A stretch of DNA of 34,563 nucleotides from an uncultured Ectothiorhodospiraceae bacterium (lineage in GTDB: Bacteria; Pseudomonadota; Gammaproteobacteria; S012-40), in the NCBI GenBank assembly GCA_945787125.1, contig CALZHW010000021.1, forward strand, positions 1 through 34,563, in the 5' to 3' direction. Shown piece after piece: positions 802 through 19,018 of this stretch; the first letter of the stretch is position 1, and each line of letters begins with the position of its first letter. Under the pieces are notes generated by a model. It saw nothing but the letters and a program-made list of their open reading frames with translations, had not been told where the DNA came from and ran no database searches. The translations under genes were made by a program, and so were the position numbers.

Positions 802-845
802 GGTGGTATTATAGAGGTATATAAAACACCTATTGGAGGTATTAT
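802..845 (+). promoter_or_regulatory. Direct repeat over the ParD start (possible operator)
   Basis: GGTGGTATTAT (from 802) and GGAGGTATTAT (from 835) are near-identical direct repeats spaced by 33 bases, with a related AGAGGTATAT between them. The second copy contains the ribosome-binding site. ParD antitoxins are ribbon-helix-helix repressors that bind repeats in their own leader, so these could be operator sites. That role is inference. Confidence 0.4.
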
Positions 846-1137
846 GGCAATTAGAAAAACAACCCTAAGTCTTACAGATCATGACCGCGAATGGATGGAT
901 GGAATTATCACAAGTGGTGAATATGTTAGTAATAGTGAATATGTGCGTAGTCTTATCCGCAGAGACAAGGAGCAAAGGACAGAGACACCTGAGAAAATAG
1001 CCTATATTCGTGCCAAACTTATAAAAGCTGAACAAAGTGGTTTTACGGACTTAAGTCGTGATGAAATCCTAGCAAAATCAAAGGATGAGTTGCGGAAGAA
1101 TGGGGTCGGCCTGAGCACCTGTATTTTTAAGTATTAA
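844..1137 (+). CDS. ParD-like (CC2985-type) antitoxin, orphan
   Basis: This 97-residue protein resembles the ParD/CC2985 antitoxin family: an N-terminal ribbon-helix-helix DNA-binding part (IRKTTLSLTDHDREWMD, then SGEYVSNSEYVRSLIRRD) followed by a toxin-binding tail that includes GFTDLSRDEILAKSKDELR. The start ATG has a strong GGAGG five bases upstream. Family members normally sit just ahead of a parE toxin gene. Here no ParE is encoded downstream; a transposase scrap begins 17 bases after the stop. The last ten residues (VGLSTCIFKY) look unlike the usual short end after the ELR.NG segment, so the 3' end was probably altered when the toxin was lost. It may still repress its own promoter or neutralise a ParE elsewhere. 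Confidence 0.75.
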   Translation: MAIRKTTLSLTDHDREWMDGIITSGEYVSNSEYVRSLIRRDKEQRTETPEKIAYIRAKLIKAEQSGFTDLSRDEILAKSKDELRKNGVGLSTCIFKY

Positions 1138-1962: not shown

Positions 1963-4900
1963 TTAATCTGATTTCTTTTTGACAGTAACGCTCTTACCAT
2001 CATTGACTATTGATTTCGCATAGAAGTCGCTGTCAGAAATCGACTTAATATTCTCGTCAGCGAGACGCTCAACCTCTACTTTCTTCTGCTTAGTTCGAGC
2101 TATAACTAATTTAGTTTCCGCAATATCATGGTCAATAACGAATTCAGTGATGATTTTTTGCAAATCGTCAAATTTTCTCAATGCAGTTAAATCTGCTTCC
2201 GACAGATTTGTGAGACGTGGTTCCCTAATAGCTTTCGGCGGAACACCCGGTTCGAACATGGTTGAACTTGATACCCTTCTTTTGGTCTCGCAATATGCTT
2301 TGACACAATGCCGCATGGCATCAATATTAATACCAAGTTTCTTTAGCTTTTTCTCAAACTCAGGTTCAATAACTTTTCTATTCATGATGCACTCCAACAA
2401 GTGACATAAGCGTTCATTGGCATCGTCGCGATCATCAAGCGGCCCGACAGGCGTCAAGTCAGCTCCTACATGAACAGCCGCTGATACTACTTGCTCGCGT
2501 GTGAACGGTTTGCCATAAAGGGTTCGACCTGCCGCTTGAACACGGCTCGAATAGATGCCCGCAACGCCTGCCACGAGGGATGCACGGTAACGTCCCGGTT
2601 CATACTCCGTAAATGAGAGCGTCTTAATGCTTCCATCCGGACGAGTCAGCTCAGCCACTATCCTCGCACGGCGATCGACAGGTTGATTGTATTCAGTCAA
2701 TTGAACATAAAAATCAAGTTTTGCACCTGGCTCATGACTGCTTTGCTGCACTACTGCCTTCATATTCAAGTTTGAACGCGCTTGGATGATCAGGTCATAT
2801 GAAAGATAACGACGCTGCATTTTAAGGAATTCAATGACTTCCTGTCTTTCTTTTTGTAATAACTCTTTAAGTCGTTGTTGATCGAATTTCAAAACTACAT
2901 GCCAACGCCCCGCATGGCTGCCATTCGAGTTAACGGGTATTGCCGGTAAATTAACTCTATAGAAACTTACTCTACGTCCTTCAACGTAAGTGAGGTTGGT
3001 AACCGTCGACACGTCGGCGCGTTGAAAAAGTGTTCCATCGGGAGTCTCCAGACAGAAATCCAGCAGTGCCGGAAAGCGGCACAGCACAATGACATCGACA
3101 TCGACGTCCGCTTCCGTCACATCAAAAGGAATGCGGTGTTTGCTATCTAGTATTAGATGGCCTCGCGGATCGAGAATAATGTCTTGATTGGTTACACCGG
3201 CTAGCGCTTGAACAAACAGCTTAGTGAGAAAGAACTCTTGCACCGAACTGCTCATATCGCCGGTGATGAGCAAGTCACCATTATTGTTCTTGGTAATCTT
3301 TTCCAATGCAACTTCACTGACGTTACCAGCAGTCCCGAGACCTATGGCAAACGTATTTGCCGAGATAGAATCGGACACATTGTCAATGGTTGGCGACTGA
3401 TTTTCATTGCCATCAGTCATGACGACCATAGCTAGAACATCGTAAGGATCAGGAGGTATGAGTGCATTGGCAGCAACCTGCCCATCGGCAAGTGCACTAT
3501 TGCCTTCTAGAATACCGGCGCCTATTCCGGTTAAGCCCCGTGGGTCAAGATTAGAACCAGCTAAAATAGTGTTGATGTTATCACGGCCGGAGCCGACGAC
3601 TATCGGCGAGTAAGGCCCCATCTCAGTGACATTTAGTAGACGATCGACTATTTCGTCATAACTGACAACGCTAATACCATCTTCAGGGCGCATCAGAACG
3701 GAGAATACTGATACAGCATCTTTCAACAGTTCAGCCTTAGTGACCGGGGTTCCAGTTGAACTAGTGGTTGCCGTGCCCGCCATGCTACCGGAACGATCAA
3801 GCACTAGCGCTACTGCTGTCTTCTGCACTGGAACTGGCGTAGCAAGCAGATCTATCTGCGTGATCAATAACGAATAATCACTGCCTTGGTTTGCTGCATA
3901 AAAACCTTCAACATCGGTAAAATATGCTTCAACTGTTACACTACTGTTCTCCGTTGGGCCAGCAATTCCGGGTGCCGTGTAGGCAACGAAAACATAACCA
4001 TAAATGAATGATTCACCGCACACTGGGGTAGCAGTGAAATTCGTGACCGGTGTCTGTGAAAAATTGCCAGACGGGCCCGCAGTAATACGAAATTGGACTT
4101 GCCGAGCGGTCTCAACACGAAATCGGATTGCGTGGTAAGTTGTCATTCCTACCGGCACATTTCCGAAATCCACACTCGGAGTCTCGAGCGTGACAGAAGG
4201 AATATCCGTGTCATACATATAACCACCGGCCTTGTGATCTAAAACACTATCAATGGTGTATTCGGAACCAAAATGAGTACCAAACAATACCATATTGTCA
4301 CCAAGACGGTGGCCTGCAAGTGTAGCTGATTCGCCGCCTCCAGGCACATAAGGTTCGAAGGGGTGCTTCTGTTGCCAAACCGCCCATAACCTATCTACGT
4401 TTGCATGATGGATAAAAAATACTGGATCATTTGGCGAACTGCTGGGAAGCATAGAACCACCGACATAAACATGACCAGCATTGTGGAAGCGTACTGCTTG
4501 ACCAGAGAACCAGCCTTCAAGTCGATTTCGAAAAGCGTCATTGGAACCCGCATCGTTCCAATTAGATTCATCCAACGGCGTAGCATCTAGTAAGGTGAGT
4601 GTGTCATCATGATCGCCCAACACTTCACCACCGAGAGTTCGTTGCAGATAGGCGCCAGCAGCCCCGCCAGTGTCGACATTAATATTCCAGTTTCCGGCAG
4701 AAAATGCGAACGCTCCAGTGGTAACTTGATTGTCAAGGCCATCACCATCACCACCCAGAAAATCAGTGGTAAAAGGATTGCTACCAATCAAATCAGACCA
4801 ATCCCAATATGGAAGTGCTAGGTGGGGTTTGCTGGATATGTCTTGTAAATCCTTCTCTAGCAAGTCCAAAAACTTACGATGCCACGCTAAAAAACCAGGA

Positions 4901-5091
4901 CGCCTGTGGGCTCCAGTGCCCACCTGTGTATGTAACCAAACATAGTCATCGTACCGACTGTTTGCCCCGTCAGATTGCGCGGCAGGAATTTGACTAGGTG
5001 CTTTAGCTGGATTTTTAAGATCAAGAAAAGCTTGGACAAGTTCACTTTTCTCGGCTTGACTCAAATTTTTAACATTCTTTCTACAGTTCAT
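1963..5091 (-). CDS. Tyrosinase domain fused to a von Willebrand A domain
   Basis: This 1042-residue protein starts with a type-3 copper domain (about 30-290). The CuA site looks like His54, His62 and His71 (within AHRRPGFLAWHRKF); the CuB site like His203 and His207 (HNAGH) and His229 (NDPVFFIHHANVDRLW). Such domains oxidise phenols to quinones with O2. A beta-sandwich segment follows (305-415, begins VDFGNVPVG, like ASH/choice-of-anchor D domains). Then comes a VWA domain (about 424-630) with a complete MIDAS: D432-R-S-G-S436, Thr521 in the LTGIG segment, and Asp560 in VVMTDG. Residues 630-850 are beta-rich and Ig-like; the rest is charged and helical. No signal peptide or membrane segment is visible. 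GGAGA precedes the ATG. It stands alone, with a 1-kb leader. Copper ligands and fold are family knowledge; the combined function is unknown. Confidence 0.85.
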   Translation of the reverse strand: MNCRKNVKNLSQAEKSELVQAFLDLKNPAKAPSQIPAAQSDGANSRYDDYVWLHTQVGTGAHRRPGFLAWHRKFLDLLEKDLQDISSKPHLALPYWDWSDLIGSNPFTTDFLGGDGDGLDNQVTTGAFAFSAGNWNINVDTGGAAGAYLQRTLGGEVLGDHDDTLTLLDATPLDESNWNDAGSNDAFRNRLEGWFSGQAVRFHNAGHVYVGGSMLPSSSPNDPVFFIHHANVDRLWAVWQQKHPFEPYVPGGGESATLAGHRLGDNMVLFGTHFGSEYTIDSVLDHKAGGYMYDTDIPSVTLETPSVDFGNVPVGMTTYHAIRFRVETARQVQFRITAGPSGNFSQTPVTNFTATPVCGESFIYGYVFVAYTAPGIAGPTENSSVTVEAYFTDVEGFYAANQGSDYSLLITQIDLLATPVPVQKTAVALVLDRSGSMAGTATTSSTGTPVTKAELLKDAVSVFSVLMRPEDGISVVSYDEIVDRLLNVTEMGPYSPIVVGSGRDNINTILAGSNLDPRGLTGIGAGILEGNSALADGQVAANALIPPDPYDVLAMVVMTDGNENQSPTIDNVSDSISANTFAIGLGTAGNVSEVALEKITKNNNGDLLITGDMSSSVQEFFLTKLFVQALAGVTNQDIILDPRGHLILDSKHRIPFDVTEADVDVDVIVLCRFPALLDFCLETPDGTLFQRADVSTVTNLTYVEGRRVSFYRVNLPAIPVNSNGSHAGRWHVVLKFDQQRLKELLQKERQEVIEFLKMQRRYLSYDLIIQARSNLNMKAVVQQSSHEPGAKLDFYVQLTEYNQPVDRRARIVAELTRPDGSIKTLSFTEYEPGRYRASLVAGVAGIYSSRVQAAGRTLYGKPFTREQVVSAAVHVGADLTPVGPLDDRDDANERLCHLLECIMNRKVIEPEFEKKLKKLGINIDAMRHCVKAYCETKRRVSSSTMFEPGVPPKAIREPRLTNLSEADLTALRKFDDLQKIITEFVIDHDIAETKLVIARTKQKKVEVERLADENIKSISDSDFYAKSIVNDGKSVTVKKKSD

Positions 5092-5422
5092 ATTCCATCT
5101 CCTATGGTGTCTTCAGTTTTTTTACTGCATACGAAGGGGCTAGCTCAGGGCTGTAACCCATGTTAATGAAGCATCCAGTGAGACGCCCGCAGCGTTCAGT
5201 CAGACACCATTAGAATTTCCAGCCATGGCATGTGGTTTAAATACATTAATCAATTCTCCAAATATTTTACGATTAATGCCCTGTACTATTATTCGAGATC
5301 CTATTTCATTCTTCGTTAGTGAATGGAGCCTTCAGTTTATCTACAGAAAGACACTTTTAAATATGACTTAATACCGAAATTTATGTGATTTATTCACTAT
5401 TTTGGGAGCATCAATATTTGTA
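5092..5422. other. Upstream region of the tyrosinase-VWA gene
   Basis: About 330 bases with no gene. The minus-strand gene start lies at its left edge, with GGAGA as ribosome-binding site near 5098-5102. Promoter elements should lie here, but I cannot assign them with confidence. Confidence 0.5.
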
Positions 5423-16978: not shown

Positions 16979-17017
16979 ACTGATTTCCCAAGGTAATACG
17001 CAATATTGACACACACT

Positions 17018-19018
17018 ATGAATACTCCAACGATCTACCAACAAAAAGCACTCAACAATCCGCTTGCTCACCTAATCACATGGTTAATGGTCGCATGGTT
17101 AATGATCGCATGTGCCATTTGCACACCACTTGCTGCGGATGAAAATGACATTGATGTTGTGTTGTTACTGGATGCCTCAGGCAGCATTAACACCAATGAT
17201 CCATTTCGCATGAGAATCGCAGCAGCGAAAATGTTTGTTTCGCTATTGCAACGTAATGACCGAGTAGCAGTCATTAGTTTTGATGGCCGCGCCTACCCAG
17301 TAACCCCCCTGCTTAAACTAGATTCTAAAAAGAATGAAAATATCATTTTGCAGAGTATCGATAAAATAGTAGCAAAAGGGAAATATACCAATGTTCATGA
17401 TGCCCTGTCTTTGGGATACGATACCTTAAAAACAAGCAATAATACTGGGCGTGAAAAACATATCATTTTGATATCAGATGGGAAAATGGATTTAGGAAGC
17501 AATGAGCGCAATGTGAAATTACTGGAAAAAACATTGCAAGACCTTACCCCAAAATTTGTCCAAAAAAAAATAAAAGTGCATAGCATCACTTTCAGCAAAG
17601 ACTCCTACATTCCTTTACTAAAACTCACCGCTGAAGACACAAATGGACACTTTGCGTTACTAACAAATGCGAAAAACATTCATCAGATCATAGATCACAT
17701 TTATTTACGAACCAAAAAACCGGATGAAATACCACTGACCGAAGACAGTTTTGTGGTGGATAATAATGTTAATGAACTAACTGTTGTTGCCTCGAAATAC
17801 GATGCAGATTCCATAATCACACTAGAAAACCCTAATGGCACAGATATCTCACAGGCATCACACAGCAACAATGTGCAATGGCAAAATAGCGAAAAATACG
17901 ATCTAATTAGCATCAAAAAACCTAAACCAGGATACTGGTTAATTAAATTTTCCGAAGGTGGCAACAAAGCCTACATACTGTCTGATCTAAATTTAAATAT
18001 CAAAGCCACAAAAGAAATAGCGGAACCGGGCACACCACTACATATACGGGCGTATTTAGCTGAAAATGGTAAGCTAGTCAACAATAAAGCCTTATTGAAA
18101 ACCTCATCATTTCAGATCAAAGTCACCTCACCCACCGGCACGGAGCTCAGCAATCAACTGCTTGATGATGGGTCAGAAATCGGTAGCGAACGGCATGATG
18201 GCATTTATGGTATTAGTTACGCATTTGATAATGAAGGCGTCTATAAAATAGAAGTTACGCTAAGCAATGAAACCTTTGATCGCAAAAAAACATTGTATGT
18301 TACCGTTAAATCATATTCACCCAAAGAGCCATTCGATAAAACAAACCAAACAACTACACAGCCTACGAATGCACAAGAGGCAGAAAAACAGACAGAAGTC
18401 GAAAAGATGATTGCCGAAAAGAGTGAAAATTCACTTGCAGCACACATTAAGGAACACCATGCTCCCGCAACTCTTGCAGATACCAATGCACTGCAAGCAG
18501 ATCACAATCAACATGGCAGCAGCCCAATCGCAGAACATACAGAACATACAGAACATACAGAACATACAGACGAGCATACAAACCCTGAAAATATAGATGC
18601 CGACGATGGGGGGTATTCTCTCACCGAAGCACTTATATTCTTTGTTTTGTTAAATATGATACTAGCGGCCTCAGGCGCCGCTTATTATTTCTTTTATTAC
18701 AAAAAACAACAAGAAAAGTCGAAAGAAAAATTAGATCCGCAAGAAGTTATTGTCGATTCAGAGCCGAGCACCAATTCAAACGAGCAAAATGAAACACCGC
18801 AAAGTGAGGCTAATGATACTGATGAGGAAAAAGAATCTGCGGCAAGTCAGCTAATGAGTCAAGCAATTGCCTCCGATATAGAAAGCGCAGAAAACAGCGA
18901 AACCGATAATTATAGCTTATCAGACGCCGTAGATGATTTATCGGAGATAGACCTTGCCGCCGAACTTTCTTCCATATTGGATAGCGAAGATAGCAAAATC
19001 ACCAAGAAAGACATTTAG
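17018..19018 (+). CDS. Membrane-anchored von Willebrand A protein
   Basis: The 666-residue product has a hydrophobic N-terminal segment (about 17-38, signal or anchor), then a VWA domain (44-240) with a complete MIDAS: D52-A-S-G-S56, Thr124 in KYTNVHDAL and Asp154 in ISDGKMD. Residues 250-440 look beta-rich and Ig-like, with PGYWLIKFSEGG and a later DDGSEIGSERHDGIYGISYA, as in eukaryotic CLCA-type and bacterial VWA proteins. A low-complexity linker follows, with four EHT repeats at 506-517 coded by four perfect 9-base units, then a membrane helix (about 535-560) and a 100-residue, strongly acidic cytoplasmic tail. The coiled-coil gene begins 12 bases after the stop. ATG 17018 is preceded by a weak site; a TTG at 17006 is an alternative. 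Confidence 0.85.
   Translation: MNTPTIYQQKALNNPLAHLITWLMVAWLMIACAICTPLAADENDIDVVLLLDASGSINTNDPFRMRIAAAKMFVSLLQRNDRVAVISFDGRAYPVTPLLKLDSKKNENIILQSIDKIVAKGKYTNVHDALSLGYDTLKTSNNTGREKHIILISDGKMDLGSNERNVKLLEKTLQDLTPKFVQKKIKVHSITFSKDSYIPLLKLTAEDTNGHFALLTNAKNIHQIIDHIYLRTKKPDEIPLTEDSFVVDNNVNELTVVASKYDADSIITLENPNGTDISQASHSNNVQWQNSEKYDLISIKKPKPGYWLIKFSEGGNKAYILSDLNLNIKATKEIAEPGTPLHIRAYLAENGKLVNNKALLKTSSFQIKVTSPTGTELSNQLLDDGSEIGSERHDGIYGISYAFDNEGVYKIEVTLSNETFDRKKTLYVTVKSYSPKEPFDKTNQTTTQPTNAQEAEKQTEVEKMIAEKSENSLAAHIKEHHAPATLADTNALQADHNQHGSSPIAEHTEHTEHTEHTDEHTNPENIDADDGGYSLTEALIFFVLLNMILAASGAAYYFFYYKKQQEKSKEKLDPQEVIVDSEPSTNSNEQNETPQSEANDTDEEKESAASQLMSQAIASDIESAENSETDNYSLSDAVDDLSEIDLAAELSSILDSEDSKITKKDI
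18533..18568 (+). repeat. 9-bp tandem repeat inside the VWA gene
   Basis: Four perfect copies of GAACATACA encode EHT-EHT-EHT-EHT. A diverged copy (GACGAGCATACA) follows. Changes in copy number keep the reading frame, so the His/Glu/Thr-rich linker could vary in length between strains. Confidence 0.95.

Follow-up and report, generated by a model that had tools for sequence, protein, structure and literature searches.

Chains that combine an enzyme with a VWA domain are known chiefly as animal metalloproteases (CLCA). In this family, an enzyme is followed by a VWA domain with a MIDAS, a galactose-binding-like or DUF1973-type domain and an Ig/FnIII domain; its prokaryotic distribution is patchy and the enzyme is reported to be replaced by unrelated peptidases, the M10 or CHAP types that occupy the place of the metalloprotease in the prokaryotic CLCA layouts described by Lenart et al. 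(2013; PMC3650047). The protein analyzed here shares these traits, but carries a copper oxidase (tyrosinase) where CLCA proteins have an N-terminal CLCA_N zincin with HExxH, lacks a signal peptide, unlike the extracellular CLCA proteins, and additionally possesses an ASH-like domain before the VWA domain and a conserved two-cysteine tail. Oxidase and VWA domain are also joined in one chain in two actinobacterial LodA proteins (Campillo-Brocal et al., 2015; PMC4417212). With the bacterial tyrosinases (Streptomyces MelC2, Priestia megaterium TyrBm, Marinomonas PpoB1) our protein has in common PF00264, six histidines, the water keeper and the HisB1+1 Asn, and PpoB2 adjoins its close relatives; however, it is 750 residues longer and no MelC1-like caddie gene was seen (no plausible ORF within 1 kb upstream). 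Tyrosinases fused to lectins or propellers (Methylobacter, Streptomyces NBC_00868, Variovorax, Rhodococcus plasmids) belong to the same signal-less branches and also end in a binding-type module, and in some of them a small gene lies upstream, as beside some of the genes described below, but Fungal_lectin, FG-GAP, ricin or unassigned repeats replace the VWA half. In the literature searched (mostly non-subscription), we found neither a bacterial tyrosinase-VWA protein nor a copper oxidase in the CLCA slot. The statement of the earlier note that no function had been described for this combination holds in so far as we found no tyrosinase-VWA paper, but it overlooks the CLCA-like enzyme-VWA precedent for peptidases (PMC3650047). 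A copper oxidase in the enzyme slot of a CLCA-like layout is a variant of a known enzyme-VWA kind, in which peptidase replacement has already been reported.

The window (the whole stretch of 34,563 nucleotides that was analyzed) makes up contig 21 of a genome of 4.15 Mb, in which we counted one tyrosinase. The gene and its parts are as follows.

5099..5103, minus strand: AGGAG, likely ribosome-binding site, separated from the downstream ATG by 7 bases (from the sequence)
1963..5091, minus strand: whole gene, tyrosinase-VWA chassis protein of 1042 aa (ORF, Pfam and the same architecture in homologues)
4207..5091, minus strand: tyrosinase (type-3 copper) domain, residues 1-295 (PF00264, structure matches, conservation)
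4932-4930, 4908-4906, 4881-4879, minus strand: putative copper ligands H54, H62, H71 (conserved in 7/7 fused homologues)
4485-4483, 4473-4471, 4407-4405, minus strand: putative copper ligands H203, H207, H229 (conserved in 7/7 fused homologues)
3847..4206, minus strand: ASH/HYDIN-like beta domain, ~residues 296-415, start of the chassis (conserved block in the chassis alignment; modelled strands)
3232..3822, minus strand: VWA domain, ~residues 424-620 (sub-threshold in Pfam; CLCA1 VWA by profile and fold)
3798-3784, 3531-3529, 3414-3412, minus strand: MIDAS residues D432/S434/S436, T521 and D560 (invariant in 16/16 chassis proteins)
2782..3174, minus strand: beta domain after the VWA, ~residues 640-770 (aligns with the hemicentin galactose-binding-like domain of ORF 17006-19018)
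2467..2769, minus strand: Ig/filamin-like domain, ~residues 775-875, ending in a conserved F-[TSN]-R motif (Filamin E 0.013, weak)
2266..2436, minus strand: two-cysteine helical tail, residues 886-942, LCxLLxCLL...ECxKxYC (C901 and C929 invariant)
1966..2199, minus strand: window-specific helical extension of low confidence, residues 965-1042 (pLDDT ~30-58; not conserved)

Only ~7 open codons precede the ATG in frame, too few to encode a signal peptide; the protein has none, as the earlier note had stated. Elsewhere in the window, a ParD-type antitoxin is encoded at 844-1137 (plus strand), with no adjoining ParE toxin gene recognized, and a REP-associated transposase considered at 1154-1397 found no support in Pfam.

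Residues ~296-942 form one conserved unit, hereafter the chassis, composed of the ASH-like, VWA, galactose-binding-like and Ig domains and the two-cysteine helical tail. Of these, the earlier note had named the ASH-like and Ig-like domains; the former agrees with the ASH, HYDIN Ig and Cep192_D4 matches that stand ahead of the VWA domain in distant relatives and the latter with the weak Filamin match, while the galactose-binding-like domain and the tail had been missed. In the window protein VWA_2 and VWA (residues 427-618) remained below the Pfam gathering cut-offs (22.2 vs 27 and 17.4 vs 23.8 bits), whereas several homologues exceed them, e.g., L004 at 51 bits; hence, the expected Pfam recognition of both halves was obtained for PF00264, but for the VWA domain only in homologues. 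Moreover, the chassis profile matched the CLCA1 VWA domain (E 3e-11), the AF2 model adopts the VWA fold (pLDDT mostly 70-87), and CLCA1 VWA superimposes on it with TMt 0.71-0.76, though other VWA folds match it as well. As previously claimed, the MIDAS (DRSGS, Thr, Asp560) is complete by sequence, and the same residues are unchanged in all 16 chassis proteins, as are Cys901 and Cys929. The Ig/filamin-like domain is modelled at pLDDT 85-91 and is conserved in the chassis alignment. TIGR00868 was weakly reached by one chassis relative (E 1.6e-6; cut-off 900 bits) and was not among the matches listed for the window protein.

The window encodes a second CLCA-like VWA protein (17006-19018, plus strand), which lacks an enzyme domain and comprises VWA, hemicentin galactose-binding-like (PF23560) and Filamin domains, with TIGR03503 in its C-terminal part. 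Because the profile alignment of the two proteins (hhalign, probability 97.6) covers 351 columns and spans the VWA, galactose-binding-like and Ig domains, we equate the chassis layout with that of CLCA (VWA, DUF1973, FnIII).

Five N-terminal enzyme types were found on the chassis: tyrosinase, LodA-type oxidase (a planctomycete, L073), M14 carboxypeptidase (Caballeronia insecticola, Burkholderia peredens), S8 subtilase (Paracoccus, Saprospiraceae, Aureibaculum) and DUF7689 (a Bathyarchaeota and a Phycisphaerales genome; weak match, E 0.0042). The non-tyrosinase carriers align with residues ~296-942 along the entire length, and more distant relatives bear trypsin-like or M64 peptidases, or ASH repeats. 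The chassis tree requires three changes of enzyme type, the smallest number possible for the four types included; it groups the window protein with those of Mesorhizobium and L028 (support 100/100) and does not reject a single clade of tyrosinase carriers (AU p 0.10). On the tyrosinase-domain tree, a single clade of chassis-fused proteins was strongly rejected (AU p 1.4e-37), so that fusion or swapping took place more than once. Since different fused tyrosinases lie nearer to stand-alone ones or to those that carry Fungal_lectin (Methylobacter), FG-GAP (Variovorax) or ricin-type modules (Rhodococcus), all of them without the chassis, we conclude that exchange has affected the enzyme as well as the binding module. 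Given that a CLCA-like layout accommodates several proteases as well as a copper and a quinoprotein oxidase, our collective results suggest that the chassis, rather than the enzyme, defines the system. The combination described in the earlier note is thus no isolated pairing of two domains but one example of an enzyme on a CLCA-like VWA chassis, and the exchanged enzymes offer a direct handle on the unsettled role of the CLCA-type VWA half.

On balance, we lean towards the reading that the window protein is a signal-less phenol oxidase that a CLCA-like chassis tethers to a partner or surface in a MIDAS-dependent manner. Copper would load into the N-terminal tyrosinase domain, which would oxidize phenols or tyrosyl residues to ortho-quinones, while the chassis (ASH-like domain, VWA with MIDAS, galactose-binding-like and Ig domains, tail) would bind a partner via the MIDAS metal and thereby hold the enzyme beside its substrate. 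The chassis would serve as a general holder, with proteases or a LodA-type oxidase placed on the same unit in other lineages. By analogy, metal-dependent partner binding through the MIDAS is probable, as are the linker and binding roles of the chassis domains, and the docking target presumably lies outside the cytoplasm. Such a chassis would be a natural scaffold by which phenol oxidation or cross-linking could be directed to a surface of choice. The earlier suggestion that the VWA domain may bring the oxidase to a specific target finds indirect support in the fact that this half carries other enzymes elsewhere and that lectins and propellers replace it in related tyrosinases. How the protein would reach an external target is hard to account for, since none of the close chassis proteins carries an export signal (signal peptide or other). 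Counted against docking are also the absence of PpoB2 from the window genome, of the small upstream gene and of a conserved neighbourhood partner, together with the sub-threshold VWA match of the window protein and the low-confidence interface between enzyme and chassis in the model. Tentatively, we speculate that the VWA chassis with its two-cysteine tail is a common signal-less prokaryotic carrier, onto which oxidases and proteases were grafted repeatedly and which is exported by an unrecognized route to a MIDAS-bound target; this broader proposal we hold to be possible, though doubtful. The tail itself was considered as a general sorting signal and rejected because it is essentially restricted to chassis proteins, with one copy per genome.

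Alternatively, the protein could be a cytoplasmic phenol oxidase similar to Streptomyces MelD2, with its own C-terminal half acting as a scaffold for assembly or as a lid that controls the copper site. The missing signal peptide would fit this, MelD2 provides the precedent of a protective polyphenol oxidase acting intracellularly (PMC2758597), and the active site of many PPOs is shielded by C-terminal domains or caddies (PMC11608171). However, proteases and LodA reside on the same chassis, which is thus not specific to a copper site, and a lid would not suit these enzymes; we favor docking for this reason. Moreover, a lid needs no complete MIDAS, yet all 16 proteins have one, and lectins and propellers stand in for the chassis in related tyrosinases. 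We consequently judge the lid or scaffold unlikely, albeit deserving real weight.

A fixed carrier with exchanged enzymes, a patchy horizontal distribution and the plasmid location of some copies could also point to an antagonistic effector that is freed by contact or lysis, its chassis binding competitor or host surfaces and its swappable enzyme causing the damage; LodA, one of the enzymes swapped in, is an antimicrobial oxidase that acts in the medium (PMC2855505). Nevertheless, no adjoining secretion system or immunity gene was recognized, the small upstream genes are unrelated across enzyme types, and there is one copy per genome, unlike in typical effector repertoires. An effector role is, in our opinion, quite improbable.

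The tyrosinase half was examined with regard to its copper site. PF00264 matches residues 45-242 (E 7.7e-40; 138 bits vs a cut-off of 22.6), and the best NCBIfam match of the protein is the MelC2 model (E 1.6e-59), whose equivalog cut-off is missed (201 vs 450 bits). The six copper histidines that had been proposed earlier (54, 62, 71, 203, 207 and 229) are all conserved in the seven fused homologues, which is consistent with their predicted role as ligands. Among the positions described for polyphenol oxidases as water keeper and first activity controller (PMC11608171), Glu192 (water keeper) is kept in 6/7 and Asn204 (HisB1+1) in 5/7 aligned fused homologues. The AF2 full-length model (mean pLDDT 67, pTM 0.51; enzyme-chassis interface of low confidence) resembles polyphenol oxidase 6z1s. 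Five of the histidines (H54, H71, H203, H207 and H229) lie on helices in it and H62 lies in a loop directly after a helix end, a predicted arrangement similar to that of type-3 copper proteins; when the tyrosinase domain was modelled by itself, the result was poor (pLDDT 48). Judging from these conserved residues, the domain is probably a catalytically active phenol oxidase. The tyrosinase domain is also found in mollusc hemocyanin units, so that the site might instead be an O2 carrier or a structural relic with no oxidase activity. Yet the solved single-domain structures that come closest are tyrosinases from Streptomyces (E 1e-49) and of the Bacillus type, with E values of 1e-49 to 1e-39 overall, the water-keeper Glu192 and Asn204 are present, and a PpoB2 copper chaperone gene adjoins the closest relatives, which makes the carrier or relic very improbable.

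DUF1326 and PpoB2 genes directly follow the fused gene in L027 and L028, the two relatives that are closest; in Marinomonas, PpoB2 transfers copper to the tyrosinase PpoB1 (PMC2855505). We found no PpoB2 in the window's genome, while the positive controls (G764 and G765) were detected. A small gene (66-93 aa, GHxIxL...ELxIDG) abuts five other tyrosinase genes regardless of their C-terminal module:

L024, 6063-6296: small gene abutting a tyrosinase gene
L008, 9800-10000: the same
L009, 9372-9626: the same
L059, 2897-3178: the same
L079, 3748-3999: the same

Low pairwise scores (E 5e-7 to 0.04), together with position, point to homology of these small genes; the family reached no Pfam family above cut-off and is absent at the window locus. 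This small gene may be a copper helper distinct from MelC1 and PpoB2. Apart from pairs of close relatives, the loci compared have no conserved gene neighbourhood or partner. On plasmids, tyrosinases with no visible signal peptide were noted at L059 3180-4991, L079 4001-5743, L080 3983-6052 and L081 3983-5728, their C-terminal modules being Fungal_lectin, unassigned repeats, FG-GAP repeats and a ricin-type lectin, respectively.

The fusion is not confined to the window. Full-length fused relatives with 33-40% identity occur in gammaproteobacteria (L003/L024, L004/L019/L020), on plasmids of the archaeon Haloarcula sp. JP-L23 and of Microvirga ossetica, and in Mesorhizobium sp. YC-39, another pseudomonadote and a Burkholderiales genome (L074); the architecture of the window protein was seen at L003/L024, L004/L019, L008, L009, L027, L028 and L074. 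Hence, a homologue search proposed earlier returned the same tyrosinase-VWA architecture in independent proteobacterial genomes and in Haloarcula, with the halves in one full-length chain and not separated, as an assembly error would have it. Although the window is one contig of a genome fragmented into 321, the possibility that assembly or binning joined two genes into 1963-5091 is practically negligible, since the reading frame is uninterrupted and the full-length fusion reappears in several genomes assembled independently, with complete plasmids among them; the ORF encodes tyrosinase and VWA in one chain, as first proposed, and this fusion recurs in many independent genomes. A phage origin was rejected, as there was no match in phages or viral contigs. 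The distribution is sparse: strong chassis matches were obtained in 4/369 gammaproteobacterial genomes and in 1-2 genomes per other sampled group, counts that are not unbiased frequencies because some matched genomes seeded the profile. Moreover, the census is incomplete, given that the scan was seeded with three sequences and missed divergent members, e.g., the window, Haloarcula and Microvirga proteins. The strong chassis type was present in one copy in each genome checked.

Several other arrangements of enzymes and VWA proteins were observed. In the window's genome, contig 146 (L056 4115-8473, minus strand) encodes a membrane-anchored enzyme-VWA chain in the order S8 subtilase, PPC, VWA, galactose-binding-like, Invasin_D3 and outer-membrane beta-barrel. 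In a single case (G178), tyrosinase and chassis are encoded as separate proteins: the gene of a TAT-signal tyrosinase follows that of a distant chassis protein on the same strand, 199 bp downstream. The planctomycete locus (L073 1444-12497) contains a cytochrome/VWA protein with a TM end, the LodA-chassis fusion and then a second, stand-alone LodA, while L058 5572-13781 brings close together a TAT-signal tyrosinase, a secreted haem-motif VWA protein and a PF00141 peroxidase. Finally, a zincin that has the motif HEIGHAMGL but lacks a visible signal peptide (L010 5894-8014, minus strand) adjoins an M14-chassis gene and is kept in L023 (96% identical).
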